Shown here: piece by piece, positions 39,901-64,000 of the stretch
Position numbering within the stretch: the stretch's first letter is position 1
How the letters are laid out: every line of letters starts with the position of its first letter
Source: Williamsia soli
GTDB lineage: Bacteria > Actinomycetota > Actinomycetes > Mycobacteriales > Mycobacteriaceae
Assembly: GCF_017377795.1 (NCBI RefSeq)
Contig: NZ_JAFRDR010000005.1
Location: 372,001-436,000 of the forward strand
Direction: 5' to 3'
Length of the DNA stretch: 64,000 bases
The notes under the pieces: generated by a model
The model's database searches: none
What the model saw: only the letters and a program-made list of their open reading frames with translations
Told to the model about the DNA's origin: nothing
Translations under genes and position numbers: made by a program

Positions 39901-40098
39901 CGGATGCACGGCGTCTCGGTGCCGCGACGCCTGACTTGTGTTCACCACCTGTCGCGGCGGGAAGCTTGGGGCTACTATGGGGAGAGGAACGCTCTCATTT
40001 TCGAGAATATCGATTTCTTGAGGGCGCCGGAGACAGTCGGCGACCACGCCTCGCATGAGGGGTGGCGCATCGCAACAGAGCGTCAAGAGAGGCTGAAG

Positions 40099-46788: not shown

Positions 46789-46817
46789 TCCGCTTGGAGA
46801 TCGTCACTCTCTTAATG

Positions 46818-46839
46818 GAGAACGGGATTCTGCTATCGT
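46818..46839 (+). promoter_or_regulatory. GAGAAY-N3-RTTCT operator and leaderless promoter of the SDR gene
   Basis: GAGAAC-GGG-ATTCT at 46818-46831 is one of several related palindromes in this island. A TATCGT -10 element at 46834-46839 ends six bases before the ATG, fitting a leaderless message, so the operator would block the promoter. Confidence 0.6.
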
Positions 46840-46845
46840 AGTGGG

Positions 46846-47694
46846 ATGGCGAACAACTCACTCGAATCCCTATCGGCAGATGCATTCGCGAACCGAACCG
46901 TGGTGATGTCCGGCGGCAGTCGCGGTATCGGATTGGCCATCTCGATCGCTCTCGCCGAGCGCGGGGCGAACATCGTACTGCTGGCGAAAACCGATACGCC
47001 ACACCCGAAATTACCCGGGACAATTCACACCGCGGTGGAAGAAATTCAAAAGAGCGGCGGCAAAGCGGTCGGGGTCGTCGGCGACGTGCGGAATGTCGAA
47101 GACGTTCAGCGGGCAGTGGACACCGCGGTTTCGACGTACGGTGGTATCGACATCGTCGTGCACAACGCCAGCGTGATCAACGAGGCAAAGACGGCTGATC
47201 TACCTCTGAAACGCTATGACCTCATGCAGGGTGTCAACGTCCGGGGGATGTTCGCACTGACGCAAGCAGCGCTGCCTCACCTGATCGCATCCGCCGATGC
47301 GCAGATACTCTCGATTTCGCCACCGCTGAACATGTCGCCGCACTGGCTCGGCAAGTTCCCTGCCTACACGCTCTCGAAGTACGGGATGACGCTGCTGGCA
47401 CTCGGATTCGCCGACGAGTTCGTGCAGCACGGCATCGCTGTCAACTGCCTGTGGCCCGAGACCACGATTGCAACCGCGGCGGTCAAAAACCTGCAGGCCG
47501 ATCCCGATGCGGCTTCGCACGCCAGGGAGCCCGAGGTGATGGCACATGCTGCAGCCTTGGTGTTGGCCCGCAAGGCCACCGACACCGGCGAATGTCTGAT
47601 CGATGCCGACGTACTCATCGGCCACGGTGTCTCCGATCTGTCGGCCTACGGTGGCGTTGAACCCCTCGACTACGACTTCTACGTCGATCGCTGA
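46846..47694 (+). CDS. Short-chain dehydrogenase, HSDL2-like
   Basis: The 282-residue SDR has the cofactor loop SGGSRGIG at about residues 22-29, NASVIN, and the active-site YTLSK near residue 174. The pattern NMSPHWLGKFPAYTLSKYGM and CLWPETTIATAAVKNL resembles the HSDL2 group of hydroxysteroid-dehydrogenase-like proteins. It has its own promoter with a palindrome shared with later genes in the island. The substrate is probably a hydroxy- or ketoacyl-CoA intermediate. Confidence 0.85.
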   Translation: MANNSLESLSADAFANRTVVMSGGSRGIGLAISIALAERGANIVLLAKTDTPHPKLPGTIHTAVEEIQKSGGKAVGVVGDVRNVEDVQRAVDTAVSTYGGIDIVVHNASVINEAKTADLPLKRYDLMQGVNVRGMFALTQAALPHLIASADAQILSISPPLNMSPHWLGKFPAYTLSKYGMTLLALGFADEFVQHGIAVNCLWPETTIATAAVKNLQADPDAASHAREPEVMAHAAALVLARKATDTGECLIDADVLIGHGVSDLSAYGGVEPLDYDFYVDR

Positions 47695-47798
47695 AGCATT
47701 GCCGGCCACGCTGGCCGCGTACCCGGACTTCAGGTGGGACGCTGTCTGCCGAAACGCCACATACAGAGTAAATCAGTATTACATTCTCGTGTATGAGG

Positions 47799-47815
47799 AA
47801 ACTACGTTCTACTCT
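47799..47815 (+). promoter_or_regulatory. Weaker operator-like site before the kinase gene
   Basis: AACTACGTTCTACT at 47800-47813 is identical over 14 bases to the site before the P450 gene (48979-48992). The right arm GTTCT is intact and the left arm is degenerate. TACTCT at 47810-47815 could be the -10 element. Confidence 0.45.
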
Positions 47816-47872
47816 TCGTGAGAGTCATGTTGGTCCCGACGTGAGGTGCGGACGTCGGCGGGTGGAGTCGCT

Positions 47873-48949
47873 ATGACCGTGACGGTGCCGGACACGCTCG
47901 ACGAGGCGTTGTCGCCGCGGTGGCTCACCGGCGCACTGCAGCCTCGGTTCCCGGGGATCGAGGTGACAGAGGTGGCCCCGGGGCCCATTGTCGAACGTGT
48001 GTCGACGAACGCCCGGTTCACGATCAGATGCGCCGGCGGCGTACCCGATGGGCTGTCTGAGTCGCTCTGTGTGAAGGGCTATTTCAGCGAAGTCGGACGG
48101 GAGGCCCGCCATGTCGGGGAGCGTGAGGCGTACTTCTATCGGGACCTCGCACCCGAGAGCGGTGCCCGGACGCTGCGCAGCGTCTACGCCGACTACGATA
48201 CGACTGCGCGCCATGGGGTGATCATCACCGAAGACATGGTGGCCGGTGGCGGCGAGTTCTTGGATGCGGCCAGTGCGTTCACGCCTGACCAGGTTGCCCA
48301 GAGTCTTGGTGAGTTCGCTCGGCTACATGCCTCCACGTGGGGCGGTTCACGGTGGGCTGACGCGCACTGGCTCGAGCCACGCCTTGATGGTGCACTGCGC
48401 GCGTGGGGTATCGACGCGATCACCGACAGGGTCGAGGCCAACTTCGACGGTCCCAATGGTCGTCGCGTACCTGCCGAGGTGCGGGATGCGCCCCGGCTGG
48501 TGGAGGCGTACGTGCTTCTGGCTCAGGCCTTGACGGCCGAACATGCATCCTCGGATTGGTGTGTGATCCACGGTGACGCTCATGTGGGAAATCTGTTCTT
48601 GGACCCGCAGGGAAACCCGAGTCTGGTTGATTGGCAGCTGATTCAACGAGGTATGTGGTACGTCGACATAGGAACGCATATCGCTACGGCGCTCACCGTC
48701 GCCGATCGTAGAAGCAATGAACGCGATCTGCTGGATCACTACCTGGATTGCCTCCGGGCCGCCGGCGTCAAGCCGCCGGCAAGAGACGTCGCTTGGCGGG
48801 CGCTGAGTCGCGGAATCGTGAGGGGCTTCTATCTCTGGGGGATCACATCACAGGTCGAACCGAGGCTGATCGAAATTCTGTTACATCGCCTGGGCTCTGC
48901 TGCCGCTGATCACGATGCTCTGACGTCGGATCTCTTCGCGAGACGTTGA
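47873..48949 (+). CDS. APH-family phosphotransferase (small-molecule or acyl-CoA kinase)
   Basis: The 358-residue protein has the aminoglycoside/ecdysteroid-kinase-like fold, with the catalytic loop HGDAHVGNLFLD (His233, Asp235, Asn240) and the metal-binding Asp in LVDWQ near residue 252. The ATG at 47873 follows GGTGGAG. Stand-alone APH proteins next to acyl-CoA dehydrogenases occur in pathways where a 4-hydroxyacyl-CoA is phosphorylated before elimination (LvaA and ACAD10/11 type). The context fits that model, but the substrate is inferred only from neighbours. Confidence 0.8.
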   Translation: MTVTVPDTLDEALSPRWLTGALQPRFPGIEVTEVAPGPIVERVSTNARFTIRCAGGVPDGLSESLCVKGYFSEVGREARHVGEREAYFYRDLAPESGARTLRSVYADYDTTARHGVIITEDMVAGGGEFLDAASAFTPDQVAQSLGEFARLHASTWGGSRWADAHWLEPRLDGALRAWGIDAITDRVEANFDGPNGRRVPAEVRDAPRLVEAYVLLAQALTAEHASSDWCVIHGDAHVGNLFLDPQGNPSLVDWQLIQRGMWYVDIGTHIATALTVADRRSNERDLLDHYLDCLRAAGVKPPARDVAWRALSRGIVRGFYLWGITSQVEPRLIEILLHRLGSAAADHDALTSDLFARR

Positions 48950-48966
48950 ACAAGAATGCAACTCTC

Positions 48967-48996
48967 TTGCAAGCGAGAACTACGTTCTACTAAGGT
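48967..48996 (+). promoter_or_regulatory. P450 promoter with perfect AGAAC-N3-GTTCT operator
   Basis: TTGCAA at 48967 and TAAGGT at 48991 are spaced 18 bp apart. Between them lies GAGAAC-TAC-GTTCT (48975-48988), a perfect 5-bp inverted repeat flanking three bases, so a bound regulator would cover the promoter spacer. Confidence 0.6.
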
Positions 48997-49031
48997 GGAG
49001 TTTGAGCACTACCGATCAGGGAGATGAACGT

Positions 49032-49135
49032 ATGTCGATTGGGGAACTTGGCGAATGGGCGACGCAATGAAAGGCGCAGCGGGACTGTCCCGGTTCACAT
49101 CTGCGAGACCCGAACCGGCAGGGAGTCCGACATGA
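49032..49135 (+). other. Two chained micro-ORFs before the P450
   Basis: AGGGAG precedes ATG 49032, which opens 12 codons (MSIGELGEWATQ) ending at 49070. That stop overlaps ATG 49067 (ATGA), which opens 22 codons ending at 49135, and this stop overlaps the P450 ATG at 49132 (ATGA). A chain of two ATGA overlaps is unusual. It may be a translational-coupling leader or chance; alternatively an in-frame ATG at 49024 gives the P450 a 36-residue extension. Confidence 0.35.
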
Positions 49136-50385
49136 CTTCGGCCACAGTCGACCGCGCTCGGCTTCGGGAGCTGTTCGACCTCAGAAGCTCGTACAACGCA
49201 TTGACCGGAGGGCTCTACGCCGGTGACCCGTATCCGATCTGGCACGACCTGCGGGCAACCGGGCCGGTACACGAGGGAACGGTTCACGAACTCACCGGAC
49301 ACCCGGGGACCCTGTATTTTCAGGGCTTGCCCTTCCCGGATCGACCGCACTACTCGGCATTCAGTTACGAGGCCTGTTTCGAGGCCTTTCGTAATCCGGA
49401 GGTTTTTGCGTCGTCTTCCGAACCGGTGGATCCGGTCTCCGGGGCGTACGGACATGACAACAGCATGCTGACAATGGGGGGCGAGCAGCATCACCGCTAC
49501 CGCGGTCTGGTGCAACCGTCGTTTCTCCCGAACAACGCCAAGTGGTGGATCCGGAACTGGATCGAGGAGTGCGTACACGAGTTGATCGAGGCGTTCTCCA
49601 GCGATGGTCACGCGGAACTCAACGTGGACTTCTGCGCCGCGATACCGGTATTGACGATCACCGGCAGTTTCGGTGTCCCTGTCGAACAGGCGCTCGAGAT
49701 CAGGGCCTGTCTCAACACCGATCAGGCGCGCGTCATCGAGATTCTGGCGCCGATCGTCGCGGCGCGGCGCAGCGAGCCCCGGGATGACTTGATCAGCGTG
49801 CTGGTGCAGGCAGAACTGACCGATGAGAACGGGGTGACCCAATGGCTCTCGGACAACGAGATCTACTCTTTCTCACTTCTGTTGCTGTCGGCGGGTTCCG
49901 GGACGACGTGGAAGCAGATGGGTATGACGATAACGGCGCTCTTACAGCGTCCCGACATTCTCGACGCGGTGCGGCAGGACCGGGCACTGGTCAAAGCCGC
50001 GATCGAAGAGACTCTGCGGTGGACGCCCACGGACCCGATGTTCTCGCGGTTCGTGACCGAAGACATCGAGTTCTTCGGCAAGGAGATCCCGAAGGGGGCG
50101 GTGATCCATCTGTGTGTCGGCGCCGCCAATCGCGACCCGGAACGGTGGGAGGATCCCGATGTCTTCGACATCTACCGCAAGAAGCGGCCAACTCTGGCAT
50201 TCGGACAGGGAACGCACATGTGTCTGGGAATGCACGTGGCGCGTGCCGAGATGACGGTGGGCATAAACGCATTGCTGGATGCGCTACCGAATCTGCGGCT
50301 GGACCGTGCAGCGGAGCAACCCGAGTTCGTCGGGATGTACGAGCGCGGGGCAACTGCCATCCCGGTGTTGTTCGATGTGACCTGA
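49132..50385 (+). CDS. Cytochrome P450
   Basis: The 417-residue P450 has an I-helix segment LLSAGSGTTWKQMG (AGxGTT where AGxDTT is common), the ExxR motif in EETLR, and the heme loop FGQGTHMCLG with Cys364. AGGGAG lies seven bases before ATG 49132, which gives the standard bacterial N-terminus. The gene has its own operator-bearing promoter. The electron donor may be the KshB-like reductase at 56454 or a ferredoxin elsewhere. A hydrophobic substrate hydroxylation is expected. Confidence 0.92.
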   Translation: MTSATVDRARLRELFDLRSSYNALTGGLYAGDPYPIWHDLRATGPVHEGTVHELTGHPGTLYFQGLPFPDRPHYSAFSYEACFEAFRNPEVFASSSEPVDPVSGAYGHDNSMLTMGGEQHHRYRGLVQPSFLPNNAKWWIRNWIEECVHELIEAFSSDGHAELNVDFCAAIPVLTITGSFGVPVEQALEIRACLNTDQARVIEILAPIVAARRSEPRDDLISVLVQAELTDENGVTQWLSDNEIYSFSLLLLSAGSGTTWKQMGMTITALLQRPDILDAVRQDRALVKAAIEETLRWTPTDPMFSRFVTEDIEFFGKEIPKGAVIHLCVGAANRDPERWEDPDVFDIYRKKRPTLAFGQGTHMCLGMHVARAEMTVGINALLDALPNLRLDRAAEQPEFVGMYERGATAIPVLFDVT

Positions 50386-50400
50386 CGTCAGTCGTCTGAA

Positions 50401-50442
50401 CCGAAGGGGCCGATGAGCATCGATGCTCATCGGCCCCTTCGG
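50401..50442. terminator. 42-bp perfect palindrome between convergent genes
   Basis: The sequence from 50401 to 50442 is a perfect palindrome, giving a 20-bp stem with a CG centre. It lies between the convergent P450 and ABC transporter genes and is placed to terminate both. Confidence 0.85.
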
Positions 50443-50459
50443 CATATCGGCTGTTCTCT

Positions 50460-51479
50460 TCAGAGTTGCTTGGACAAGACGGGCGTGTCCTTCAAGGCCA
50501 CGTCGAGCGGAAAATGGCAGGCCACATACTGTCCGGGCGTAACCTCATGCATCTCGGGTTCTTCAGTAACGCAACGTTCTTCCGCCCTCGGGCAGCGGGT
50601 GCGGAATCGGCATCCGGCGGGAGGCGACAAGGGTGATGGCACATCGCCTTCGAGCGCGGGCCCGGCGAAACCCTTCTCCGGATCGGTCAGCGGGACCGAA
50701 TCGAGCAGTGCCCGGGTGTAGGGGTGGGCCGGGTTTTCGTAAACCTGCACCGAGTCACCGAACTCACATACCTTACCGAGGTACATCACCATGACGTTGT
50801 CGCTGACGGTCCGCACGACGCCGAGGTCGTGGGCGATGAAGACGACGGTGAGATCGAACTCCTTCTTCAGATCCTCGATCAAGTTCAAGATCTGGGCCTG
50901 AACCGAGACATCGAGCGCTGATACGGGTTCGTCGCAGATCAGCAGACGGGGATTGAGAGCGAGCGCCCGGGCGATGGCCACGCGTTGGGCCTGACCACCG
51001 GACAGGGCGCGAGGCAACACATCCGAATACCGATCCGGGGGTAGACCGACCGAGTCCAGTACCTTGGTGGCCTTGGCGACTCGATCGGCTTTCGGCGAAC
51101 CGGACACCGCCATGCCCTCGACCACGATGTCCTTCACGGCACGCCGCGGATTCAGGGAGCTGACGGGATCCTGAAAGATCATCTGCATGTCGCGACGCAG
51201 CTTCCGCATGTGTTTCTCGTCGACCTTGTCGATCCAGTCCTCGCCGAACCTGATGTGACCCGCGGTGACTCGGTCGAGTCGGAGGATGGCGCGTCCGGTG
51301 GTCGACTTTCCACAGCCGGATTCGCCGACTATTCCCAGGGTTTCCCCGGGCAGGACGTCGAAACTGATCCGCGAGACCGCTTGGACGGTGCCTGCGCGGG
51401 TCGGGTATTCGACGACGAGGTCTTGCACACTGAGGAGTGCCTCGTCGCCGCGAAGATGGGCGCTTCCGCTGCCGGCCAT
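50460..51479 (-). CDS. Dipeptide/oligopeptide ABC transporter ATPase (DppF type)
   Basis: The 339-residue ATPase has Walker A GESGCGKST, the signature LSGGQAQRV, Walker B LLICDEPVSALD, and the C-terminal oligopeptide-transporter extension with clustered cysteines (GCRFRTRCPRAEERC). It is the last gene of a five-gene importer operon and powers uptake with the preceding ATPase. Confidence 0.92.
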   Translation of the reverse strand: MAGSGSAHLRGDEALLSVQDLVVEYPTRAGTVQAVSRISFDVLPGETLGIVGESGCGKSTTGRAILRLDRVTAGHIRFGEDWIDKVDEKHMRKLRRDMQMIFQDPVSSLNPRRAVKDIVVEGMAVSGSPKADRVAKATKVLDSVGLPPDRYSDVLPRALSGGQAQRVAIARALALNPRLLICDEPVSALDVSVQAQILNLIEDLKKEFDLTVVFIAHDLGVVRTVSDNVMVMYLGKVCEFGDSVQVYENPAHPYTRALLDSVPLTDPEKGFAGPALEGDVPSPLSPPAGCRFRTRCPRAEERCVTEEPEMHEVTPGQYVACHFPLDVALKDTPVLSKQL

Positions 51480-51483
51480 GGTG

Positions 51484-52491
51484 TTACCTTCCGGAGAGGG
51501 TCAGGGTCTTGATGGGCGTGGGGGTGACCGGGTGCAGGCAGGCCACGCTGTGATCGGTACCGACCGATGCCAACTCGGGCCCCGGCGTGAGGCAGTCGTC
51601 CTGGGCGTGAGTGCAGCGCGGCGCGAACCGGCAGCCGGTGGGAGGGGACGTGGGGTCGGGCAGTGACCCCGAGATGACACGCAGCGGGGCGTGGCGCGGG
51701 TGATCGATGGTGGGTGTGGCACCCAGCAACGCGTGGGTGTACCGATGTAGCGGTTCGTCGAAAACTTCACGGGTCGAACCGACTTCGGCAAGTCTTCCGG
51801 AATACATCACCGACACCCTGTCGGTGCGGCCGGCCACGACTGCCAAGTCGTGGCTGATCAGCATCATCGCCATGTCGCGCTCGCGCTGCACCTTGCGTAA
51901 CAGGTCGAGGATCTGGCGCTGGATCGTGACGTCAAGCGCAGTCGTCGGCTCATCGGCGATCAACAGTTCCGGTTCGCAGGCCAGAGCGATGGCGATCATC
52001 ACGCGCTGCCGCATACCACCGGACATCTCGTGCGGGTAGTTTCGCAGGCGCCGCTCCGGATCGGGCACACCGACCTCCTGTAGGAGACGGAGTGCCCGAT
52101 CATGAGCTTCGGAACGACTGACACCGAGGTGGCGCCTCATGCCTTCGGTGAGCTGACGTTCCACGCGGACAACGGGGTTGAGCGAGCGGCCCGGGTCTTG
52201 GAAAACCATCGCTATCTGGTTGCCCCAGATCTCGAGTTTGTCCTTCTTGGTCAGTGAGAGCAGATCCCGGCCGCCGAACGTGACGACACCGGATCGCGCG
52301 GAACGGGGCGGCATCAGCCCCATGATGGCTCGGGCCATCACCGATTTGCCCGAGCCGGACTCACCGACTACTCCGAGTGCCTGCCCTTTGTCGAGAGTCA
52401 GTGAAACGTCGTCCACGGCGCGAACTGTGCCGCGTGCGGTGCCGATGTATGCACGTAGGTTCTGCACTTCGAGCAGTGGTTCAACGTTCAT
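51484..52491 (-). CDS. Dipeptide/oligopeptide ABC transporter ATPase (DppD type)
   Basis: The 335-residue ATPase has Walker [10 protein letters not shown], the signature [12 protein letters not shown], Walker [13 protein letters not shown] and the cysteine-bearing C-terminal extension ([15 protein letters not shown]). It lies between the binding-protein gene and the second ATPase gene. Together they form the usual heterodimeric ATPase of this transporter class. Confidence 0.92.
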
Positions 52492-52519
52492 GTGATCCGG
52501 CCCTTCCTGTGGCTATCGG

Positions 52520-54094
52520 TCAGTTCATCCAGATGTTCTCGGGCAGAGGCGATCCGAGTGTGTAGAGATCGACGCCGCTGACGTTCTTCGCGTACACGAC
52601 CGACGGGACCGCCCGGGTGTACCAGACGCCCGGGATGATCTCGGCAAGGCGTTCCTGAACCGTGTTGTACGAGTCCTTGCGGGCTTCGACATCCTGCTCG
52701 GTACGGCCGGCGTCGAGGGCTGCGTCGAGCTCGGGATCATTCGTTCCCACGAAGTTTCCCGGCGATTTGGAGTGGAATGCGGTCCACAGCGGGAAGTCCG
52801 GGTCCTGGACGATTGCTGACGAGATGATCATGTCGAAATCTCGCGCTCCGGCCCGTGCCGTGGCTGCGCCGAAGTCCACAACCTCGATCTTCATCTCGAC
52901 ATTGTCGTAGCCACTGAGCTGGGTCTGCAGGCCCTCGGCCAGGGTGCGGCTCTCCGTGGTCGGGTACGACAGGAATGTGAAGGACACCGGCTTTCCCTCG
53001 GCAGCGAGCTCGTCGAAGAGTTGCTGCGCCTCATCCTTGTTCGCCTGCTGCAGCGTGACATCGGTGAAGAACGGTGATTGTTCGTCGAACAGGGTCTCCG
53101 GAACCGTTCCTTCGCCGTTGTAGACGATGGTGTTCAGTCCGGCTAGGTCGGTGGCCAGCGCGACCGCCTTGCGTGCGCGCTGATCGTTGAAGGGCGCGCG
53201 GCGTTCGTTCATGCCCATGTACTGTCCGCCGCCGGTCGGGACGACCTCGGTCTTTAGGCCCGCCGCCTGTGCCTTGTTGACACTGGCCTGATTGGTCTCA
53301 GAGGACAGGTCCGCAGCCCCGGTGGCCATGGTGTTCGCACGGGTGTTGCTGTCTGCAACGGTCTGAACGGTGATCTTGTCGAGGTACGGCTTCGGGGCGT
53401 CGTAGTATTCGGGATTCTTTTCCATGTCGATAGATGCCTGACGCGTCCAATTGGTGAGCTTGAACGGTCCGGCGCCGACGGGATTCTGGTCGAACGATTC
53501 GCGGCCCTTTTGCAGAGCGGTAGGCGAGGCGATCCAGTTGAGCGCACCTGCCACGAGTGACTCGGCGAAGTGTGGGTTGGGCGCCGCCAGTGTGACTTTC
53601 AGATTCGCAGGGTCGATTACCTCACTGCTCGCGACTTGGATGGCCTGTCGGATGGACGTCGAACCGAGTGCCGGGTCCTTGAGGCGATCCCAGTTGAACT
53701 TGACCGCAGCAGCGTCGAGCGGGGTGCCATCGGTGAACTTGAGACCGGGCCGGAGAGCCAGGTTGAACGTCTGACCGTTGTCGGTCGTGGAGAAGTCGGT
53801 CGCCATCTTGTATTCGATGGTGAAGTTCTCGATGTTGTTGATCATGAGCGTGCCGTAGAGGCCGTTGCCGACGACGGGCTGATGCGCCCAGGTGTTGGAG
53901 AGTGCGGCGGGGTCGAGCGATCGTGGTTCGCCGGTTTGGATGACCCGTAGTGTTCCGCCCGGTACCGGGTCCCCTTCGTCTTCGGCGGATGTGCCGGTGG
54001 TGTTGCTTCCACCACCGCATGCGGCGAGGAAGACGAGCAGTGCAGCGGAGAAGATCACGGCGAAGTGGTGCGCAATTCGTCTGGGGCGGAGCAT
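52520..54094 (-). CDS. Solute-binding lipoprotein, family 5
   Basis: The 524-residue protein has a lipoprotein signal with the lipobox LAAC (Cys26) and the family 5 fold: GGTLRVIQTGEPRSLDPA near the start, YKMATDFSTTDNGQTFNLALRPGLKFTDGTPLDA and AKNVSGVDLYTLG near the end. Family 5 proteins bind peptides but also nickel, sugars, and other small molecules. Its position inside a catabolic island suggests it captures the pathway substrate, though this cannot be proven from sequence. Confidence 0.92.
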   Translation of the reverse strand: MLRPRRIAHHFAVIFSAALLVFLAACGGGSNTTGTSAEDEGDPVPGGTLRVIQTGEPRSLDPAALSNTWAHQPVVGNGLYGTLMINNIENFTIEYKMATDFSTTDNGQTFNLALRPGLKFTDGTPLDAAAVKFNWDRLKDPALGSTSIRQAIQVASSEVIDPANLKVTLAAPNPHFAESLVAGALNWIASPTALQKGRESFDQNPVGAGPFKLTNWTRQASIDMEKNPEYYDAPKPYLDKITVQTVADSNTRANTMATGAADLSSETNQASVNKAQAAGLKTEVVPTGGGQYMGMNERRAPFNDQRARKAVALATDLAGLNTIVYNGEGTVPETLFDEQSPFFTDVTLQQANKDEAQQLFDELAAEGKPVSFTFLSYPTTESRTLAEGLQTQLSGYDNVEMKIEVVDFGAATARAGARDFDMIISSAIVQDPDFPLWTAFHSKSPGNFVGTNDPELDAALDAGRTEQDVEARKDSYNTVQERLAEIIPGVWYTRAVPSVVYAKNVSGVDLYTLGSPLPENIWMN

Positions 54095-54159
54095 GTTGGG
54101 CCTCTCGGAGTGAATCTCGGGAATAGAGCTCGGGTGAAATCGTCTGAGCGGGTGTACGT

Positions 54160-56015: not shown

Positions 56016-56453
56016 TGATAGTCAACTTTCGTCCTGCACGGTGGGCTGAATACGCTTCGGAGCCTCGCAGCTGCTACGAGGATCGAGCTGACGAGTGGAG
56101 GGGGCTGTGCTCCACACGTTGTGACGTGTGCCGCTACATCTGGCGGCTGTGAGTAACGCCGCATTGACAAGCGGCTGTGACACCACTGTAGGGAATAATG
56201 GACATCAAAGGCAAGGCCTGAACGACATTGATATCGGGCATCCGGAGAATCGGCCGAGTGACGACATGCTGCGACGCTTAGCCCAATCTGAAAGCCAAGT
56301 AGCGCAACTCGATACGAAGAATTGCGGGCGAAGAGGCACACGCTCTCGATGGCCGATCATCGGAGAACTAGACCCGAAAAATGATTATTGGCAACATGAT
56401 TCATACGAGTATCGACGAAAAATGCTGTTGCAGAACTATTGCACTCTCAGCAT
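56016..56453. other. Non-coding region upstream of the importer operon
   Basis: No convincing gene is seen. The region is visibly less GC-rich than its surroundings. It holds a perfect 7-bp inverted repeat, CACACGT-TGTG-ACGTGTG, at 56113-56130, and a short direct repeat CGGCTGTGA near 56143 and 56172. The first may be an operator for the importer genes. Confidence 0.5.
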
Positions 56454-57494
56454 CTAGTCATACTGCACCTTGATAGATGGGGTGTCGGGTACGGCCTGGC
56501 ACGTCAGAATCATGCCGTCGGCGATCTCGTCGTCGTCGAGTGCATTGTTGGCACGCATGGTCGCGCTTCCCTCGAGCACTTCTCCGATGCAGGTTGCGCA
56601 GTTGCCGGACTCGCACGAAAAGGGGGGTGACAGGCCCGCTCGGCGGGCACTCTCGAGTATCGTCTCGCCCTCCTTGCGGGCGATCTCAACCTTCTTACGG
56701 CCGAGCTGGATCTTGACGGTGCCCAGCTCTACGGCGGCTGTGGCGCCGGTCGCGGGCTTGATGGAGTCGGGAGTGGGTTGGTCCTCCGCGCCTGGAATGG
56801 ATTGCGCTGCCGCGCCGAACTTTTCGGCGAAAACCCGGCCGGGCCCTGGCAGGTTGTCTTCCACGATGGCCATGAAAGGTTCGGGGCCGCAGAGGTAGTG
56901 GTCGCCGTCGGTGTCATCGCCGATGAAGTCCAGCACCCTGGTTGCGTCGAGGAAACCGTCCTCGACGTCATAGCTGTGTGTGACGGACAGTCGGCCAGGG
57001 TACTGGGCCACGAGTTCGTCGAGAGCAGTGTCGAATATTGCCGATGCCCGGTCCCGATCGGCACACAGCAGACGCACGCGGCGATCGGTGGTCGCCAGTG
57101 CGCTCTTGGCCAGGGAGAGGATCGGGGTGATGCCGCTGCCGCCACTGAAGCCGAGCAGGGGCACCGTTGTCTCGTTCAAGCAGAACAGGCCGGCAGGTCG
57201 CGTCAGCTCGACCGTGTCACCCTCGCTGATGTTGTCGTGCATCCAATTCGACACCTTGCCGCCGGGCACGCGCTTGACGGTGGTCATCAGTTCCGTATCG
57301 GTATCTGGCGAACTCGACATGGAGTAGGAGCGGAACAGTTCCTCCCCGTCCACGCTCACCTTGAAAGTGCAGAACTGACCGGCCCGGTAAGAGAACGCAC
57401 CCTCCTCCGGAGCGAGCACGTATGTGCGGGCGTCAGCGGTCTCTTTGACGATCCTCGTCACGGTCGCGCGCTGGAACAACGGGGGCCTCGCCAT
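56454..57494 (-). CDS. KshB/PaaE-type oxygenase reductase (FAD plus [2Fe-2S])
   Basis: The 346-residue protein has an FAD domain (RSYSMSSSP), a NAD domain (GFSGGSGITPILSL) and a C-terminal plant-type ferredoxin domain with the ligands in CESGNCATC and a final Cys in LTCQAVP. It passes electrons from NADH to an oxygenase, as 3-ketosteroid hydroxylase reductase KshB does. The ATG at 57494 has the very strong site AGGAGGTG. No Rieske oxygenase is in the window, so its partner may be one of the P450s or lie outside. It shares an operator-bearing promoter with the divergent ligase gene. Confidence 0.93.
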   Translation of the reverse strand: MARPPLFQRATVTRIVKETADARTYVLAPEEGAFSYRAGQFCTFKVSVDGEELFRSYSMSSSPDTDTELMTTVKRVPGGKVSNWMHDNISEGDTVELTRPAGLFCLNETTVPLLGFSGGSGITPILSLAKSALATTDRRVRLLCADRDRASAIFDTALDELVAQYPGRLSVTHSYDVEDGFLDATRVLDFIGDDTDGDHYLCGPEPFMAIVEDNLPGPGRVFAEKFGAAAQSIPGAEDQPTPDSIKPATGATAAVELGTVKIQLGRKKVEIARKEGETILESARRAGLSPPFSCESGNCATCIGEVLEGSATMRANNALDDDEIADGMILTCQAVPDTPSIKVQYD

Positions 57495-57540
57495 GAGCCA
57501 CCTCCTTCTAGATCGCCGACCCTGCGGCTGTGGTATCCGT

Positions 57541-57583
57541 ATTCTACTGGATGAGAATATCATTCTTCTAGATGAGCTAGGAT
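57541..57583. promoter_or_regulatory. GAGAAT-N3-ATTCT operator in a divergent promoter
   Basis: GAGAAT-ATC-ATTCT (57553-57566) is a perfect 5-bp inverted repeat with three-base spacer between the reductase and ligase genes. TAGAAT on the minus strand (57546-57541) and TAGGAT on the plus strand (57578-57583) are possible -10 elements on either side. Confidence 0.6.
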
Positions 57584-57653
57584 CTTCTCAACTTAGACGG
57601 AACGACGCTTTTCGCCGCGGGTGCCCCAGCAAGCGCCCGGTGAGGATGACTAC

Positions 57654-59075
57654 ATGCACACCCCGACTGCCCTGGTGTTCGAGCAGCAGGAGTTCACACT
57701 CCCGCAGCTCGATCGCCTGACCGCGGGACTTGCCGCGACACTGCGCAGCCGCGGTGTGACGCGGGGTGGCCGGGTGGCTCTCATGTCGTCGAATCGGCCG
57801 GAGTTCGCCATCGCCGTTCGCGCGATCTGGCATGTCGGCGCTGCTGTCGTGCTCCTCAGTCCCGCCTACAAACGAGGCGAGATCGAGCACGCCGTGGAGG
57901 TCACGAGCGTGTCCCACGCTGCGGGTGACAACCCGATCCTCGCGGGATTGATGCCGATGATCGACCTGGACGAACCGATCAGCCCGGTCGACCCGACTGA
58001 ACAGGACGACGAGTCAACCGAGCACGACCCGAATGCCGACGCCGTACTGGTCTTCAGCTCCGGGACGACCGGAATGCCCAAGGCGGTCCGCCACACCCAT
58101 GCTTCGTTGCGCGCCGCCGTTCGGCATTGGCGGGACGCCCTCAAACTAACCAGCGATGACCGCATCCAGATAGTCACGCCACCTTCGCACATACTGGGAC
58201 TGCTCAATCTTGTGACCGCATTCGAAGTCGGCGCCAGGGTGCGTCTGCATCGGCGGTTCGATCTGGACTCGATGTTGCGCCACATCCAAAGTGACCGGAT
58301 CACCCTCGAGATGGTGGTCGCGCCGATTGCGCTGGCGATCGCGGATCACCCCGATCTGGAGTCGTACGACCTGTCGTCGTTGCGATACATGATGTGGGGA
58401 GCCACTCCGGTCACCCCGAGCGTCGCCGAGATCATCACCCGGCGGACCGGTGTCGCCTGGGTACCCGCGTACGGTGCCAGTGAATTGCCGGTGATCACCT
58501 GCAATCCGGTCGACGGCGGAGCGCGACTGGACAGCGTCGGGCGTGCGGTCTCTGGGGTGCGACTACGAGTGGCGGGCATCGAGAGCGGGAAGCCTCTCGG
58601 CGTCGGGGAAACCGGCGAGATCCAGGCGCGCTCGTCGTCGGTGATGGCCGGCTACCTCCCGGGCGAGGCCACGGCGGCCGCCTTCGCTGACAACTGGTAC
58701 CGCACCGGGGACGTCGGGTCCATCGACGCAGACGGCTGGGTGACACTCACCGACCGATCCAAGGAAATGATCAAGGTCAGGGGTTTTCAGGTCGCCCCGG
58801 CTGAGGTCGAGGCGGTGTTACACGGTCATCCGGCGGTCTCGGATTGTGCCGTGTTCGGTGTCCCCGACGCCATGAGCGGAGAGGCAATCGTCGCGGCGGT
58901 CGCCCTCACGAGCCCTGTCGAAGCGCTCGAGCTCGCCGACAGCGTCGGCGAGAGACTCGCCGCGTACAAGCGGCCACACGACATCGTGTTCGTGTCCGAG
59001 ATTCCGCGCCTGCCATCCGGCAAGGTGCTGCGCCGAGTGCTGAAGGAGCGCTATGGACGTACGTCTGACCAGTGA
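57654..59075 (+). CDS. Acyl-CoA ligase (AMP-forming, ANL superfamily)
   Basis: The 473-residue protein has the AMP-binding loop SSGTTGMPKAV, YGASELPV, the hinge YRTGDVGSIDADGWVTLTDRSKEMIKVRGFQV and the catalytic Lys in LPSGKVLRR. It activates a carboxylic acid to its CoA thioester. ATG 57654 follows GTGAGGAT; an in-frame GTG at 57621 is possible. It is the first gene of a plus-strand operon with two acyl-CoA dehydrogenase and two crotonase genes. The compact N-terminal region suggests a non-fatty, probably cyclic acid substrate, which is inference. Confidence 0.9.
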   Translation: MHTPTALVFEQQEFTLPQLDRLTAGLAATLRSRGVTRGGRVALMSSNRPEFAIAVRAIWHVGAAVVLLSPAYKRGEIEHAVEVTSVSHAAGDNPILAGLMPMIDLDEPISPVDPTEQDDESTEHDPNADAVLVFSSGTTGMPKAVRHTHASLRAAVRHWRDALKLTSDDRIQIVTPPSHILGLLNLVTAFEVGARVRLHRRFDLDSMLRHIQSDRITLEMVVAPIALAIADHPDLESYDLSSLRYMMWGATPVTPSVAEIITRRTGVAWVPAYGASELPVITCNPVDGGARLDSVGRAVSGVRLRVAGIESGKPLGVGETGEIQARSSSVMAGYLPGEATAAAFADNWYRTGDVGSIDADGWVTLTDRSKEMIKVRGFQVAPAEVEAVLHGHPAVSDCAVFGVPDAMSGEAIVAAVALTSPVEALELADSVGERLAAYKRPHDIVFVSEIPRLPSGKVLRRVLKERYGRTSDQ

Positions 59076-59958
59076 ACAGCGGCAATTACGGGACGCCGCA
59101 TCCAAGCTTGCCGACGATTTGGGACCGTCATCGGTTTCGGACCTCGACGACGAGACCCGCATCATCCGGCTGGAGAAGGTGGTCGAGAGTACGGGTTGGC
59201 GCGATCTTCGCTCCGACGGTGCTTCGGCCGTCGAGGTCGCCATCGTCGTGGAGGAGTTCGCTCGCGGTTTGGTCGACGTCCCCTTCGTCGGACCGGTGCT
59301 CGCGGACGACGCACTCCGGCACCTGGCCGAAGGCCCGCACCGCTATTCCTTCGTCGTGGATGGCGAAGCTTTCGACGCCCGCGGACTCGAACGAGGGGTG
59401 GTTCTCGGCGAGAACAGCGTCAGCGCCGTGGATCTCGGACCCGGGATCGAGGGTGTGGACCTGACCAAACTGAGCGCGCCGGTGGTGGGCGCCGCTGAGT
59501 CGCTCGGGGAGCTATCGACCGAGCAAGCCCAGCGTGGCCACGCGCTCGCGCTCGTGGCCACCTGCGCTGAATTGCTCGGAGCGGCGAGAGGCGCACACGC
59601 CACGGCTGTGGAATACGCCAAGATTCGAGAGCAGTACGGCAACGCCATCGGTTCCTACCAGGCTGTTGCGCACCTGCTGGCGGAAGGGCTTGCGCTCATC
59701 GAGGGATCGATCAGCGTGCTACGACACGCGGCATGGGCCGTCGACGAACTCGAGCCCGCAGAGGCCATCCATGCGGCCACGGTCGCGAAGCTGTACTGCG
59801 CCCGTACCGCGCGGACGGTGTGCGAAGCAGCAATTCAGGTGCATGGCGGCATCGGCAACACCTGGGAATGTCTTGTCCACGTCTTTTTACGGCGGGCGCT
59901 GACAGCTACCGAACTATTCCCGGTGACCTTGGAGGAGATCCACAGTGGACTTTCGTGA
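59053..59958 (+). CDS. Acyl-CoA dehydrogenase, small partner subunit
   Basis: The 301-residue protein is a short acyl-CoA dehydrogenase family member with an eroded middle domain and the C-terminal helical bundle (AVEYAKIREQYGNAIGSYQAVAHLLAE, then AIQVHGGIGNTWECLVHVFLRRALT). In actinobacterial steroid catabolism, such short proteins pair with a full subunit as alpha2-beta2 enzymes (FadE28-29, ChsE types). It overlaps the ligase gene by 23 bases and the next dehydrogenase gene by 14, supporting a heteromer. Confidence 0.88.
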   Translation: MDVRLTSEQRQLRDAASKLADDLGPSSVSDLDDETRIIRLEKVVESTGWRDLRSDGASAVEVAIVVEEFARGLVDVPFVGPVLADDALRHLAEGPHRYSFVVDGEAFDARGLERGVVLGENSVSAVDLGPGIEGVDLTKLSAPVVGAAESLGELSTEQAQRGHALALVATCAELLGAARGAHATAVEYAKIREQYGNAIGSYQAVAHLLAEGLALIEGSISVLRHAAWAVDELEPAEAIHAATVAKLYCARTARTVCEAAIQVHGGIGNTWECLVHVFLRRALTATELFPVTLEEIHSGLS

Positions 59959-61033
59959 TACAGCCGACGAGGCCGCGTTCCGCGACCGCCTGCGTACCTG
60001 GCTCGGAGAGCGCACAGGTACCTTCGCCACCTCAGGTGATGAGTACTTCACCCGTATGGGCGAATGGCACCGGGCACTGTACGAGGCAGGATTCTTCGGA
60101 CTGAGCTGGCCGAAAGAGTATGGCGGACAGGGGCTGGAGCCGGTCTACGACGTGATACTCGACGAAGAACTGGCCCGGGCGGCATTCCCGCCACGGCCGA
60201 GCCTGGGATACCTGGTCGTCGGTCTCGGCCATCACGGCAGCGATGAGATCCGGCGGCGTTTCGTACCGGGCATGATCAACGGTACCGAGCGCTGGTGCCA
60301 GGGGTTCTCGGAACCGGGTGCCGGATCGGATCTCGCATCGCTGACGACCACGGCCACCCGCGACGGCGACGACTACGTCATCCACGGGCACAAGGTGTGG
60401 ACCAGCTACTCCGACAACGCCGATTGGTGCCTGCTGCTGGCCCGTACCGACAAGGACGTCCCTCGGCACAAAGGTATCTCGGGTTTCATAGTCCCGATGA
60501 AACAGGTCGGCATCGAGCAACGGCCGCTGAAGATGATCAGCGGTGTGACCACAGAGTTCGGGCAGGTGTTGTTCGACGGGGCACGCGTTCCGGCCGCGAA
60601 CATGGTCGGCGCACCCGGCGACGGCTGGAAGCTCGCCATGACCGTGGTCGGACACGAGCGTGAGCCGTCGACCCTTGGTTTCGCGGCCCGCTACAGCAAA
60701 CTGGTCAACCAGATCGCGGCAAAGTCCAAGGGCAAGCCGTCTGATGATCTGGCCTGGGCTGCAGTCGAAACCGAGATGTTGCGTCTGCATGTGCGTCGTA
60801 GATTGTCCGAGCAGCTCGACGGTGTGCAGCACACCTCGGACGGTTCGTTGGACAAGCTGCTGATGACCTGGGTGGAGCAGGCTGTCGGCCACGCGGCGCT
60901 CGACGTGGTCGGTACGAAGGATCCGGAACTGCTCGGTGCGTACTTGTACAGCCGTGCCCAGAGTGTCATGGGCGGCACCTCACAGATTCAGAAGAACATC
61001 ATCGCCTCGCGAATTCTAGGATTGGGAGTTTGA
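59945..61033 (+). CDS. Acyl-CoA dehydrogenase, large partner subunit
   Basis: The 362-residue protein carries the FAD and substrate segments GLSWPKEYGGQGLEP, GFSEPGAGSDLASLTTTATRDGDDYVI and AQSVMGGTSQIQKNIIASRILGL. It starts at GTG inside the end of the preceding small subunit gene. The pair probably forms a heterotetramer acting on a bulky CoA ester, as in cholesterol side-chain degradation. The substrate itself is unknown. Confidence 0.9.
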   Translation: MDFRDTADEAAFRDRLRTWLGERTGTFATSGDEYFTRMGEWHRALYEAGFFGLSWPKEYGGQGLEPVYDVILDEELARAAFPPRPSLGYLVVGLGHHGSDEIRRRFVPGMINGTERWCQGFSEPGAGSDLASLTTTATRDGDDYVIHGHKVWTSYSDNADWCLLLARTDKDVPRHKGISGFIVPMKQVGIEQRPLKMISGVTTEFGQVLFDGARVPAANMVGAPGDGWKLAMTVVGHEREPSTLGFAARYSKLVNQIAAKSKGKPSDDLAWAAVETEMLRLHVRRRLSEQLDGVQHTSDGSLDKLLMTWVEQAVGHAALDVVGTKDPELLGAYLYSRAQSVMGGTSQIQKNIIASRILGLGV

Positions 61034-61035
61034 CC

Positions 61036-61803
61036 ATGTACGACATGCCTGAAGAGATCGACGTCCAGGCTGACGGCTCGCTGCGGATCATCACGTTGAA
61101 TCGGCCGGATGCGCTCAACGCCGTCAACGACGGGCTGCACACCGGATTGGCCCGACTGTGGCCGCAATTGAGTGAGGATCGCGGTGCCCGGGCGGCCGTA
61201 CTGACGGGAGCGGGCAAGGCGTTCTCCGCGGGCGGCGACTTCACATACCTCGCGGAGTTGGCCAAAGACGATGAGCTGCGGGCGAAAACAATTGCACATG
61301 GCCGCGAGATCGTGCTCGGGATGGCTCGCTGCCGGGTCCCGGTGGTGACCGCGGTCAACGGACCCGCGGTGGGCCTGGGGTGCAGCCTGGTATCTCTGAG
61401 CGACATGGTCTACATGGCCGAGACCGCTTACCTTGCCGATCCGCACGTGCAGGTCGGTCTGGTCGCGGCCGATGGAGGCCCGGTGACCTGGCCCCTGCAC
61501 ACCAGCCTTCTGCTGGCCAAGGAATACGCCCTGACCGGTGCGCGCATCTCCGCTGAACGGGCACGCGAGATCGGTCTGGCGAATCATGTCGTCGCGGATC
61601 CCCTCGCGGAGGCAATGGCTTGTGCCAAGCGGATTTCCGAGCAGCCGCAGCAGGCCGTCGAGGCCACGAAACGCCTGCTGAATCTTCATCTCGAGCGTGC
61701 GGTGCTGGCCACCCTCGACTTCGCGATGAGCGCCGAGCACCAGTCGTTCAGCACCGACGACTTCCAGGACAACATCGCCAAACTCACCGCAAAGAAGAGC
61801 TGA
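61036..61803 (+). CDS. Enoyl-CoA hydratase/isomerase family protein
   Basis: The 255-residue crotonase has the oxyanion-hole segments GKAFSAGGDF and GPAVGLGCSLVSLSDMV, and ADPHVQVGLVAADGG in the region that normally holds a catalytic Glu. Hydration of the product of the dehydrogenase pair is the expected role. GGGAG lies seven bases before ATG 61036; a TTG two codons earlier overlaps the upstream stop. Confidence 0.9.
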   Translation: MYDMPEEIDVQADGSLRIITLNRPDALNAVNDGLHTGLARLWPQLSEDRGARAAVLTGAGKAFSAGGDFTYLAELAKDDELRAKTIAHGREIVLGMARCRVPVVTAVNGPAVGLGCSLVSLSDMVYMAETAYLADPHVQVGLVAADGGPVTWPLHTSLLLAKEYALTGARISAERAREIGLANHVVADPLAEAMACAKRISEQPQQAVEATKRLLNLHLERAVLATLDFAMSAEHQSFSTDDFQDNIAKLTAKKS

Positions 61804-61815
61804 CAGAGCAGCACA

Positions 61816-62595
61816 ATGGCTGACGATCTGGGTGCGGGCGGCTTGCGGTTCGAGCGCGAGGGGGCCATCGGATGGTGCACCATCGACCGGCCGGCCGCGC
61901 GGAACGCGTTCACGCCCGCGATGTATTTCGGTCTGAAGAGGGCTGTGCGCCTGGTCAATTCAGATCCCGATCTTGCCGCACTCATCATCACGGGATCCGG
62001 CGACGTGTTCGCGCCGGGTGGTGATCTCGGCGGGCGGGCAGAACCGGGTGACAGTCTTCCGGAGGGACTCGGAAACGATGTCTTGCCGTTTCTGGCGATC
62101 CGAGACAGTCGGGCGCCGGTCATCTCGGCCGTCAACGGCATCTGCCAAGGCGGTGGGCTGCTCGTGGCGATGATGTCCGACATCGCGATTGCCAGCGACC
62201 GCGCAGTCTTCCGGGTACCCGAGTTGCTCCGTGGGATCCCGGACGCCTTCTATGCGGCAGCATTGCCGGCCCACGTCGGGGTGGCGGTCGCGCGGGATCT
62301 GATGTTGTCTGCTCGCAGGTTCGATGCCGCGGAGGCGTTGCGGCTCGGGGTGATCAGTCGGGTCTCGCCCCACGAGCACCTGCGAGACGCGGCGCTGACC
62401 GCGGCTCGTGAGGTGCTTCGAACTGCTCCCGAGGCACGTGCTCAGGTGAAGCGGATGCTCAACGAACGCTATGGACTGATCGACACGCAGACCATGTTCG
62501 GCTCACTGGCCACCTCGCAGGAACTGCGGGAGGGGATGCGCGCCTTCATGGAGAAGCGGGAGCCGAGCTGGGTTCCCGTCGACGTGCCGTCCTGA
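61816..62595 (+). CDS. Enoyl-CoA hydratase/isomerase family protein, second
   Basis: The 259-residue crotonase carries GSGDVFAPGGDL and NGICQGGGLLVAMMSDIAIAS, followed by RVPELLRGIPDAF where a Glu is in the expected active-site place. It follows the first crotonase gene by 12 bases. Two diverged crotonases in one operon suggest separate steps such as hydration and ring hydrolysis. Confidence 0.9.
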   Translation: MADDLGAGGLRFEREGAIGWCTIDRPAARNAFTPAMYFGLKRAVRLVNSDPDLAALIITGSGDVFAPGGDLGGRAEPGDSLPEGLGNDVLPFLAIRDSRAPVISAVNGICQGGGLLVAMMSDIAIASDRAVFRVPELLRGIPDAFYAAALPAHVGVAVARDLMLSARRFDAAEALRLGVISRVSPHEHLRDAALTAAREVLRTAPEARAQVKRMLNERYGLIDTQTMFGSLATSQELREGMRAFMEKREPSWVPVDVPS

Positions 62596-62601
62596 CCGAT
62601 C

Positions 62602-62748
62602 TCAGCGACGAGGTCCGTCGGGTTCTATGGGCACCGAGATCATCAGCGGTGCAACGCCGACGATGGCGGCGGTCGTCAGCAATAGGAACGAATGGCGTTC
62701 GACCAGTCGGCTGGGAGTGGAGTTCTTGGCGATCGGTGCGGGCGACAT
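62602..62748 (-). CDS. Small single-helix membrane protein (48 residues)
   Basis: The product starts MSPAPIAKNSTPSRLVERHS, has one hydrophobic helix (FLLLTTAAIVGVAPLMISVP) and ends EPDGPRR. GAGGAGAATC gives a strong ribosome site seven bases before the ATG, and the composition is unlike antisense noise. It sits just downstream of the convergent crotonase gene. A degenerate relative of the island operator lies about 100 bases upstream. No family is recognised. Confidence 0.6.
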   Translation of the reverse strand: MSPAPIAKNSTPSRLVERHSFLLLTTAAIVGVAPLMISVPIEPDGPRR

Positions 62749-62847
62749 GATTCTCCTCAGCAGGTCACGTACTCGACTCACGACTCGTCATGTGGCGTGA
62801 ATCACTCTGGCAGATACAAACAGAGAACCATGATGCTGTCAAACCGA

Positions 62848-62863
62848 AATGACATTCTCATGC
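62848..62863 (-). promoter_or_regulatory. Degenerate operator-like half-site upstream of the 48-residue gene
   Basis: Read on the minus strand, GAGAAT-GTC-ATTTC has a perfect left arm and a partly matching right arm of the island palindrome. It is about 100 bases upstream of the small gene. Weak on its own. Confidence 0.3.
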
Positions 62864-62950
62864 TGCGGGTGCTTTGTCCTGCCGACAGAAAGCCGCCCGG
62901 TGTCGGATGATGCTCCGATCCCGGGCGACGTCGTACGAACCGACCCTCGA

Positions 62951-63715
62951 CTACTTCGGCGGGAACCGTAGCGCGCCGTCGAGGCGGATGACCTCGCCAT
63001 TGAGGTAATCGTTCTCGATGATGGCAGCGACCAGCGAGGCGTACTCGACCGAGTTGCCCATTCGTTTCGGGTGGGGGACCTGTGGACCCCAATACGCTTC
63101 GAGCTGCTCGGCGGCCTTGCCGTAGGCCGGTGTGTTGATGGTGCCGGGGGCGATGGCCATGACGCGGATGCCCAGGGGCGAGAGGTCGCGGGCGGCGACA
63201 AGGTTCATGCCGACGACTCCGCCTTTGGCTGCGGCATAGGGGAGTTGGCCGATCTGGCCCTCGTAGGCGGCGATGGAAGCGGTGTTGATGATGACGCCGC
63301 GGGTGTTCTCCTCCAGCGGTTCTTGGCGGGCGAGCGCGGCTGCAGCGAGGCGGGTGACGTTGAAGGTCCAGGTCAGATAGGACGTGATCGTCTTGGTGAA
63401 GGCTTCGAGCTTCATGGGGCTGCCGTCTTTGCCGACCAGCCGGCCGCCGCCGGCGGGACCGCCGTGGCAGTCGATGCTGGCGCGGAAGGGGCCGAGCGCT
63501 TCGGCTTCGGCGATGGCGGCGTTGACCGACTCCTCATCGCTGGCGTCGGTGTGGACGTAACGGATACCGAGCTCGTCCTGGAGTGCTTCGCCTTTGTCGT
63601 CGGCTACGTCGGCCACGACGACGTGCGCGCCGGCAGCGTGCAGGCGCCGAACGGTGGCCTCGCCGAGTCCTCCGGTGCCTCCCACGATGAGGACGGAACT
63701 ACCCTTGATCTCCAT
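62951..63715 (-). CDS. Short-chain dehydrogenase, HSD10-like
   Basis: The 254-residue SDR has GGTGGLGEA at residues 12-20, Ser147, Tyr160 and Lys164 (YAAAK), and the pattern of 3-hydroxyacyl-CoA dehydrogenases type II (IDCHGGPAGGGRLVGKDG, INTASIAAYEGQIGQLPY). It would oxidise the hydroxyacyl-CoA made by the hydratases. It is divergent from the second ligase gene with a perfect 6-bp palindrome between them. Confidence 0.9.
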   Translation of the reverse strand: MEIKGSSVLIVGGTGGLGEATVRRLHAAGAHVVVADVADDKGEALQDELGIRYVHTDASDEESVNAAIAEAEALGPFRASIDCHGGPAGGGRLVGKDGSPMKLEAFTKTITSYLTWTFNVTRLAAAALARQEPLEENTRGVIINTASIAAYEGQIGQLPYAAAKGGVVGMNLVAARDLSPLGIRVMAIAPGTINTPAYGKAAEQLEAYWGPQVPHPKRMGNSVEYASLVAAIIENDYLNGEVIRLDGALRFPPK

Positions 63716-63752
63716 GCTGTTTCCCTTCTTGCAATTGATGATCTCAATCTGA

Positions 63753-63767
63753 GAGAATCATATTCTC
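63753..63767. promoter_or_regulatory. Perfect GAGAAT-CAT-ATTCTC operator in a divergent promoter
   Basis: This is the most symmetrical member of the island palindrome, with 6-bp arms and a three-base spacer. It ends directly at the ATG of the ligase gene, so a bound protein would block initiation there, and it also covers the SDR promoter region. Confidence 0.65.
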
Positions 63768-64000
63768 ATGAATATCACGATGATCTTGGAAATGGCAGCG
63801 TCGGCCGACGATCGGGCCGTCGTGACTGCCGGTGGCACGTCGCACAGCGCCGCCGACATCTTGGACCTTGCCCGCCGTGCGGCCTCGGAGTTCACCGCAT
63901 ACCCGGCTGTGCTCTACACGGGCGTCAATGATCTCGCATATCCCGTCGCGCTGTTCGGGGCGGCGATGGCCGGTGTGCCCTTCGTGCCCCTCAACTACCG
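63768..64000 (+). CDS. Acyl-CoA ligase (AMP-forming), N-terminal part only
   Basis: The visible 77 residues (MNITMILEMAASADDRAVVT..., then YPVALFGAAMAGVPFVPLNY) match the N-terminus of ANL superfamily ligases. The gene runs off the window edge. No ribosome site precedes the ATG, which immediately follows a perfect operator, so the message may be leaderless. It is divergent from the HSD10-like SDR gene. Confidence 0.8.
   Translation, partial: MNITMILEMAASADDRAVVTAGGTSHSAADILDLARRAASEFTAYPAVLYTGVNDLAYPVALFGAAMAGVPFVPLNY

Follow-up and report, generated by a model that had tools for sequence, protein, structure and literature searches.

KstR2 is a TetR repressor of cholesterol catabolism in mycobacteria and Rhodococcus; its motif is AnCAAGnnCTTGnT, 14 bp in length with a 2-bp centre, and it was found by reasoning similar to that used here (PMC3068626). 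KstR3 of Mycolicibacterium neoaurum is a TetR repressor of the HBC operon, which encodes a coenzyme A (CoA)-thioester pathway with an aldolase (atf1) and a DUF35 protein (chsH4) (PMC10398937). We analyzed a 15-bp palindrome with a 3-bp centre, GAGAAYN3RTTCTC, in a stretch of 64,000 nucleotides of the 6.07-Mb genome of Williamsia soli, hereafter the window (C21:372001–436000; contig C21 ends at 444406, and C4 and C18 are further contigs of the same genome). This palindrome very probably serves as operator for a regulator of the TetR family whose gene lies just past the window and which would control divergent catabolic operons and its own gene. At the level of sequence, comparison establishes the motif, its position in promoters, its co-conservation with the regulator, and the autoregulatory placement of one copy.

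The system resembles KstR2 in having a TetR-type regulator with the motif in its own promoter and a palindromic operator in divergent promoters, the cluster served being catabolic, of acyl-CoA type, and conserved in related bacteria (PMC3068626). A KstR2-type operator was rejected: the arms differ from those of AnCAAGnnCTTGnT, and the spacer is 3 bp here, while a spacer of 2 bp occurred zero times in 80 loci around TetR orthologs (PMC3068626). Genes at C4:91422 and C4:91729 look by eye like atf1 and chsH4; unlike in KstR3, the operon context is a different one, and the words "motif" and "palindrom" were absent from the KstR3 text (PMC10398937).

Four copies of the motif with at most one mismatch (one exact and three with a single mismatch) were found in the window, compared with a mean of 0.49 and a maximum of 3 when the sequence was resampled 200 times under a first-order Markov model; the other 59 permutations of the arm letters each gave two sites at most. 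With up to three mismatches allowed, the window contained 94 sites against 61.8 expected, and because this excess is modest, weak relatives of the motif mean little alone. The first-pass annotation of the window had named six sites, all of which are present, exactly placed or no more than 3 bases off. Sites are given below without strand, and positions without a contig name are those of the window.

Two of the six, at 63753 and 57553, are firm regulon members on comparative grounds. The site at 63753 (GAGAATCATATTCTC, 63753..63767, no mismatch) is located between the gene of a 3-oxoacyl reductase-like short-chain dehydrogenase (SDR; 62951..63715, minus strand) and that of an acyl-CoA ligase (63768..64000, plus strand, running on to 65213 past the window), touching the ligase ATG. 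The exact motif occupies the equivalent position in Williamsia limnetica and Williamsia faeni (the latter record carries the title UNVERIFIED_CONTAM) and was found upstream of 10/10 SDR orthologs and 8/9 ligase orthologs, genera beyond Williamsia included, at a median distance of 0 from the ligase start. The site at 57553 (GAGAATATCATTCTT, 57553..57567, one mismatch) lies between an FAD/NAD/2Fe-2S reductase gene (56454..57494, minus strand; PaaE and GbcB are the best matches in NCBIfam, each under its cut-off) and an operon-first acyl-CoA ligase gene (57654..59075, plus strand), followed by genes of two acyl-CoA dehydrogenase-like and two enoyl-CoA hydratase-like proteins (59053..62595, plus strand). 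All 17 reductase orthologs, the window's own included (six genera; E ≤ 1e-110, 151 genomes searched), had this operator 51–75 bp upstream, nine of them in exact form and eight with one mismatch. The site overlaps the −10 element of the reductase, predicted from the consensus match alone. The sites at 57553 and 48975 had been called perfect, which is true of the 5-bp inner arms; over the full arms each carries one mismatch.

The first-pass annotation had anticipated a nearby TetR gene, beyond the window, with the motif in its own promoter, and such a gene was found 3.2 kb past the window edge (C21:439195–439851, or 67195–67851 on the window scale, minus strand). The promoter common to this gene and a divergent acyl-CoA dehydrogenase operon contains an exact palindrome, GAGAATN3ATTCTC, at C21:439998, and a one-mismatch copy is situated at C21:439180, between the TetR stop and the adjacent thioesterase gene. 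The product carries a TetR_N helix-turn-helix (Pfam PF00440, 33 bits vs. a cut-off of 24), and its DNA-binding region was nearly invariant among 20 aligned orthologs, its own sequence included; the TetR of W. limnetica is 99% identical. A search of 72,556 plasmid records at E 1e-20 found no plasmid-borne copy.

The AlphaFold2 model of the regulator (mean pLDDT of 82.6) was helical, with E assignments of single residues only. Foldseek returned 218 PDB matches at E ≤ 0.001, and EthR2 and FadR headed the best 50 of these 218; a PDB sequence search gave 14 distant matches. The top fold match was EthR2 of M. tuberculosis (6hs0, TM 0.72 by query, 20% identity), whose target genes presumably differ from those described here. 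Among the best fold matches was also FadR, a TetR-type regulator of Thermus thermophilus and Bacillus with structures containing lauroyl-CoA or stearoyl-CoA (3anp, TM 0.70 by query). The regulator differs from FadR in that identity is about 20%, the NCBIfam FadR score is 30.3 bits against a cut-off of 200, and the regulated genes would point to a cyclic acid, not to a fatty acid. It remained below the cut-offs of all five NCBIfam families matched, among them FasR (30.8/330 bits) and ScbR (39.6/150 bits).

Conservation was analyzed in the 80 loci mentioned above, which surround the best 80 of 383 TetR relatives from a genome-collection scan (1.53 Mb; mostly Mycobacterium, but also Williamsia, Rhodococcus, Nocardia, and Aldersonia). 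The exact motif occurred 227 times and at least once in 79 of the 80 loci. Among 25 permuted-arm controls, 23 gave no occurrence, one gave one, and one gave four. The 3-bp spacer was nearly exclusive: spacers of 0–2 and 4–7 bp did not occur, and a spacer of 8 bp occurred once. Genes of these loci were paired with those of the retrieved portions of the window's genome at ≥45% identity and ≥70% length, leaving out genes at locus ends and groups of fewer than five. In addition to the SDR and ligase counts given above, the exact motif was located upstream of the operon-first genes for TetR (78/79, and 79/79 within one mismatch), the first gene of the Rieske operon (62/63), the acyl-CoA dehydrogenase 440054 (12/12), and the thioesterase (14/15). 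It was absent from internal genes of the Rieske operon (0/66 for the Rieske subunit, 0/67 to 0/74 for the next five genes) and preceded a hydratase internal to another operon in 1/16 cases. The dehydrogenase 441039 had it in 63/76 cases and is operon-first wherever 440054 is absent. The groups of C4:104037 (28/54) and C4:25680 (18/59) are probably neighbouring non-orthologs, their displayed members being only 42–49% identical.

The regulator and the motif also go together across 401 genomes of the family. In the 114 TetR-positive genomes (E ≤ 1e-30, up to seven candidates scored per genome), the exact motif had a mean of 7.98 and a median of 9 copies, with at least five copies in 98; the 287 TetR-negative genomes had a mean of 1.23 and a median of 1, with at least five copies in 11. 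The motif count was non-zero in 285 of the 401. Eight TetR-negative genomes were checked at E ≤ 1e-12 and contained no TetR relative. In three motif-rich negatives, 13 of the 15 matches with loci (22 matches in total) were inside genes, 11 of them in frame. Two TetR-positive Williamsia genomes of low motif count (G006 and G007) encode the regulator as a solitary gene at the island junction (L033, L034, L224, L225), its flanks matching genes near C4:90.8 kb and C21:411.8 kb of the window's genome; the reductase was absent from both at E ≤ 1e-110. In these two strains the regulator seems to have been retained though the island is missing, and a solitary TetR without an operator where the island would be was counted in favour of the proposed regulon.

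Three further sites, before the HSDL2-like SDR, the APH-like kinase, and the P450 genes, are of a different kind. It had been missed that 46818, 47797, and 48975 are the proximal halves of tandem pairs of degenerate palindromes with spacings of 21, 23, and 23 bp, respectively. The window contains four such pairs, against a mean of 0.05 and a maximum of 1 in 200 resamplings and at most two with permuted arms. The first pair (GAGATCGTCACTCTC, 46797..46811, and GAGAACGGGATTCTG, 46818..46832, the latter with one mismatch) precedes the gene of the HSDL2-like short-chain dehydrogenase (46846..47694, plus strand; adh_short; NCBIfam NF006133, 363 bits vs. a cut-off of 250), and a 21-bp-spaced pair is also present in W. 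limnetica, where the proximal half reads GAGAATAAGATTCTG; one W. faeni copy, on a different contig, reads GAGAATGGCATTCTG. The second pair precedes the gene of an APH/ecdysteroid-kinase-like protein (47846..48949, plus strand). Its distal half (CAGTATTACATTCTC, 47774..47788) is an identical 15-mer in W. limnetica, while the proximal half (GGAAACTACGTTCTA, 47797..47811, three mismatches, originally placed at 47799) has the W. limnetica version GGAAACTATGTTCTA. The third pair (AAGAATGCAACTCTC, 48952..48966, and GAGAACTACGTTCTA, 48975..48989, the latter with one mismatch) precedes the gene of a cytochrome P450 (49024..50385, plus strand; the start may be 49132), and a related sequence, AAGAATGCACCCTCTC, stands before the P450 gene in W. 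limnetica. The sequence AACTACGTTCTACT is common to the APH and P450 promoters (47797–47814 and 48975–48992), which share 14 bases; compared with W. limnetica, the spacer between the two genes is some 130 bp longer, which suggests an added promoter. The fourth pair, unnamed by the first-pass annotation (39982 and 40003, 21 bp apart, 39982..40017), lies before the gene at 40099, at the island edge.

The pairs at 46.8–49.0 kb are probable operators, and their reader would be the main TetR or a paralog. An SDR homolog is present in 120/251 genomes, and of the 30 homologs whose promoters were examined, three (the window's own and those of W. limnetica and W. faeni) had a site with at most one mismatch. 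Conservation upstream of orthologs, and with it membership in a single repressor regulon as first proposed for all six sites, holds for 57553 and 63753, together with the operator of the TetR gene, and fails for 62848; the SDR, APH, and P450 sites are poorly conserved, the first two being found in Williamsia only and the P450 site not even in W. limnetica. Since conservation is limited to Williamsia or less, the sites at 46818, 47799, and 48975 may be read by the main TetR or by a relative.

A separate feature was observed upstream of the SDR homologs. In 7 of the 27 homologs with no such site, a two-mismatch match belongs to a different, asymmetric element, near ACTTGCnnAAAATGAGAATGCCAATATC in sequence and present in several genomes (L165, L167, L168, L170, L172, L174, L176). 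The core of this element recurs in the window's genome at C4:52805.

Two or more related TetR proteins with diverged operators might share the wider region, an arrangement to which we give slightly less than an even chance: the main TetR would read 57553 and 63753, and a relative, such as that encoded at C4:42124–42849, would read the 23-bp APH and P450 pairs and perhaps the SDR pair. The C4:42124 protein shares 25% identity with the main TetR across residues 2–210 (E 1.8e-15), and its gene sits among GAGAGTN3RTTCT sites (C4:37768, 39175, and 45188, with one in reverse form at 44605). The 23-bp spacing of C4:39152/39175 and C4:45165/45188 is that of the APH and P450 pairs in the window, while the conserved TetR promoters have 22 bp. 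However, the region just upstream of C4:42124 contains no GAGAGTN3RTTCT site within one mismatch, the proximal SDR site is one base off the main motif both here and in W. limnetica, and the pair spacings differ by merely 1–2 bp. A broader picture, which we consider possible but somewhat less plausible still, is that several related TetR repressors, forming a small family, govern the island and its surroundings. Their operators would have diverged at individual arm positions (GAGAAT, GAGAGT, CAGAAY) and in a tandem spacing close to two helical turns (21, 22, 23 bp), so that a single large catabolic programme is divided into blocks induced separately; the main TetR would then be the conserved KstR-like master repressor of an undescribed pathway widespread in actinobacteria.

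Several observations weigh against the explanation by the TetR encoded past the window. At most one mismatch was allowed in the SDR promoters, and 27 of the 30 homologs examined (G005, of the same genus, and 26 from other genera) lacked a site; the 48975 site is absent from the APH–P450 spacer of W. limnetica, the closest relative. Fewer than five motif copies were counted in 16 of the 114 TetR-positive genomes, G006 and G007 among them, and these two had no motif with up to two mismatches before TetR genes whose products are 83% and 75% identical to ours (2/31 of that ortholog set). The ortholog loci come mostly from closely related mycobacteria and are not independent, so the counts overstate the evidence. 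The second palindrome copy described below is rare or absent at Rieske-operon promoters (2/44 and 0/16). Finally, because the regulator scores far under every NCBIfam cut-off listed, its ligand class is deduced from similarity of fold, with sequence identity near 20%.

Under the favoured explanation, a TetR dimer would bind the 15-bp palindrome over core promoters, beside the starts of its own gene and of the divergent catabolic operons, and the bound protein would shut these genes off until released by an acyl-CoA intermediate of the pathway. Several promoters have another, degenerate copy at a distance of 22 bp, roughly two turns of the helix: a copy with at most four mismatches was found at +22 in TetR promoters of the common gene order (64/64) and of the other order (11/12), in SDR/ligase promoters (6/8), and in thioesterase promoters (7/13). 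This spacing suggests two dimers on one helix face. The targets include CoA ligases, paired acyl-CoA dehydrogenases, hydratases, a thioesterase, and a Rieske oxygenase. With such targets, and in line with the fold, the inducer is likely to be the CoA thioester of some cyclic acid, and the substrate would be a carboxylic compound, perhaps alicyclic or terpenoid/steroid-like. That the TetR is an activator or a dual regulator rather than a repressor is improbable: some TetR proteins activate, and NCBIfam labels FasR, matched weakly (30.8 of 330 bits), an activator, but the operators overlap a predicted −10 element or touch a start codon, positions suited to blocking.

The genome contained 52 matches with at most one mismatch, 50 of which were classed. 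All 14 matches within C21:352001–444406 and the whole of C4 were intergenic, with a slack of 10–20 bases at gene ends (C4:94476, counted as intergenic, overlaps a gene end). C18 had one intergenic exact site and one coding match, and elsewhere 31 of 34 matches were inside genes, 27 of these 31 in codon frame. The exact copies were intergenic in 5/5 cases. A plain genome-wide motif count was rejected as proof: it misleads because the outside matches are mostly coding and in codon frame. Once in-frame codon matches are set apart, the motif is rarer in unrelated promoters and coding regions, as the 14/14 intergenic cluster sites and the few copies in TetR-negative genomes indicate. That the palindromes are chance or codon-driven and without function is hardly credible: the coding matches and the small excess at three mismatches speak for it, but the intergenic placement of all 14 sites, the conservation across genera, and the permuted controls speak against it, and for 57553 and 63753 it is already contradicted.

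Chance is, in turn, the best reading for the site first placed at 62848, near a 48-residue gene (CGAAATGACATTCTC, 62845..62859). It has three mismatches, and nothing with up to two mismatches was listed in the corresponding spacer of W. limnetica; it was rejected as a regulon member.

The regulon had been assigned to the right part of the catabolic island in the window; it extends past the window as well, to C4 and C18. C4 and C21 probably abut at their right ends, since in W. limnetica the gene matching C4:150207 is next to the gene matching C21:443290. From this adjacency and the junction in G006 and G007, the island would extend over about 93 kb, comprising C4 from about 90.8 to 151.3 kb and C21 from about 411.8 to 444.4 kb (from 39.8 kb of the window to past its edge). 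Four C4 sites (37.8–45.2 kb) are outside the island.

The mechanism proposed would be ordinary, as many catabolic clusters are known to be under TetR repressors with operators of this type. A description of this motif or regulator was not found in the open literature, judged by the titles and abstract beginnings of the matches listed. The analysis yields a regulator, an operator, and a gene list for a conserved set that includes a Rieske oxygenase, a P450, and paired acyl-CoA dehydrogenases. As for KstR2, the list of operators outlines the pathway, and the co-recurrence of repressor and site in related bacteria marks one jointly controlled pathway. A reporter on a single operator would allow the inducer to be screened for.

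Other palindromes and loci were observed on C4. Palindromes with CAGAAYN3RTTCTG arms were found in tandem, at 21-bp spacing, at C4:112778/112799 and, as a triplet at 121.9 kb, at C4:121870/121891/121912. They are close to the TetR genes C4:118882 and C4:119513, and in W. limnetica an exact CAGAAYN3RTTCTG with a one-mismatch neighbour 21 bp off stands directly before the matching acyl-CoA dehydrogenase gene; they are probably operators of another TetR. The GAGAGTN3RTTCT variant was identified at C4:37768, 39175, 44605 (reverse form), 45188, and 102415, in all cases intergenic, the first four lying around the TetR gene C4:42124. A cluster at C4:4762–14967 contains two similar open reading frames of 67–68 residues beside ABC-transporter-like genes and has, judged by eye, the look of a small-peptide locus.

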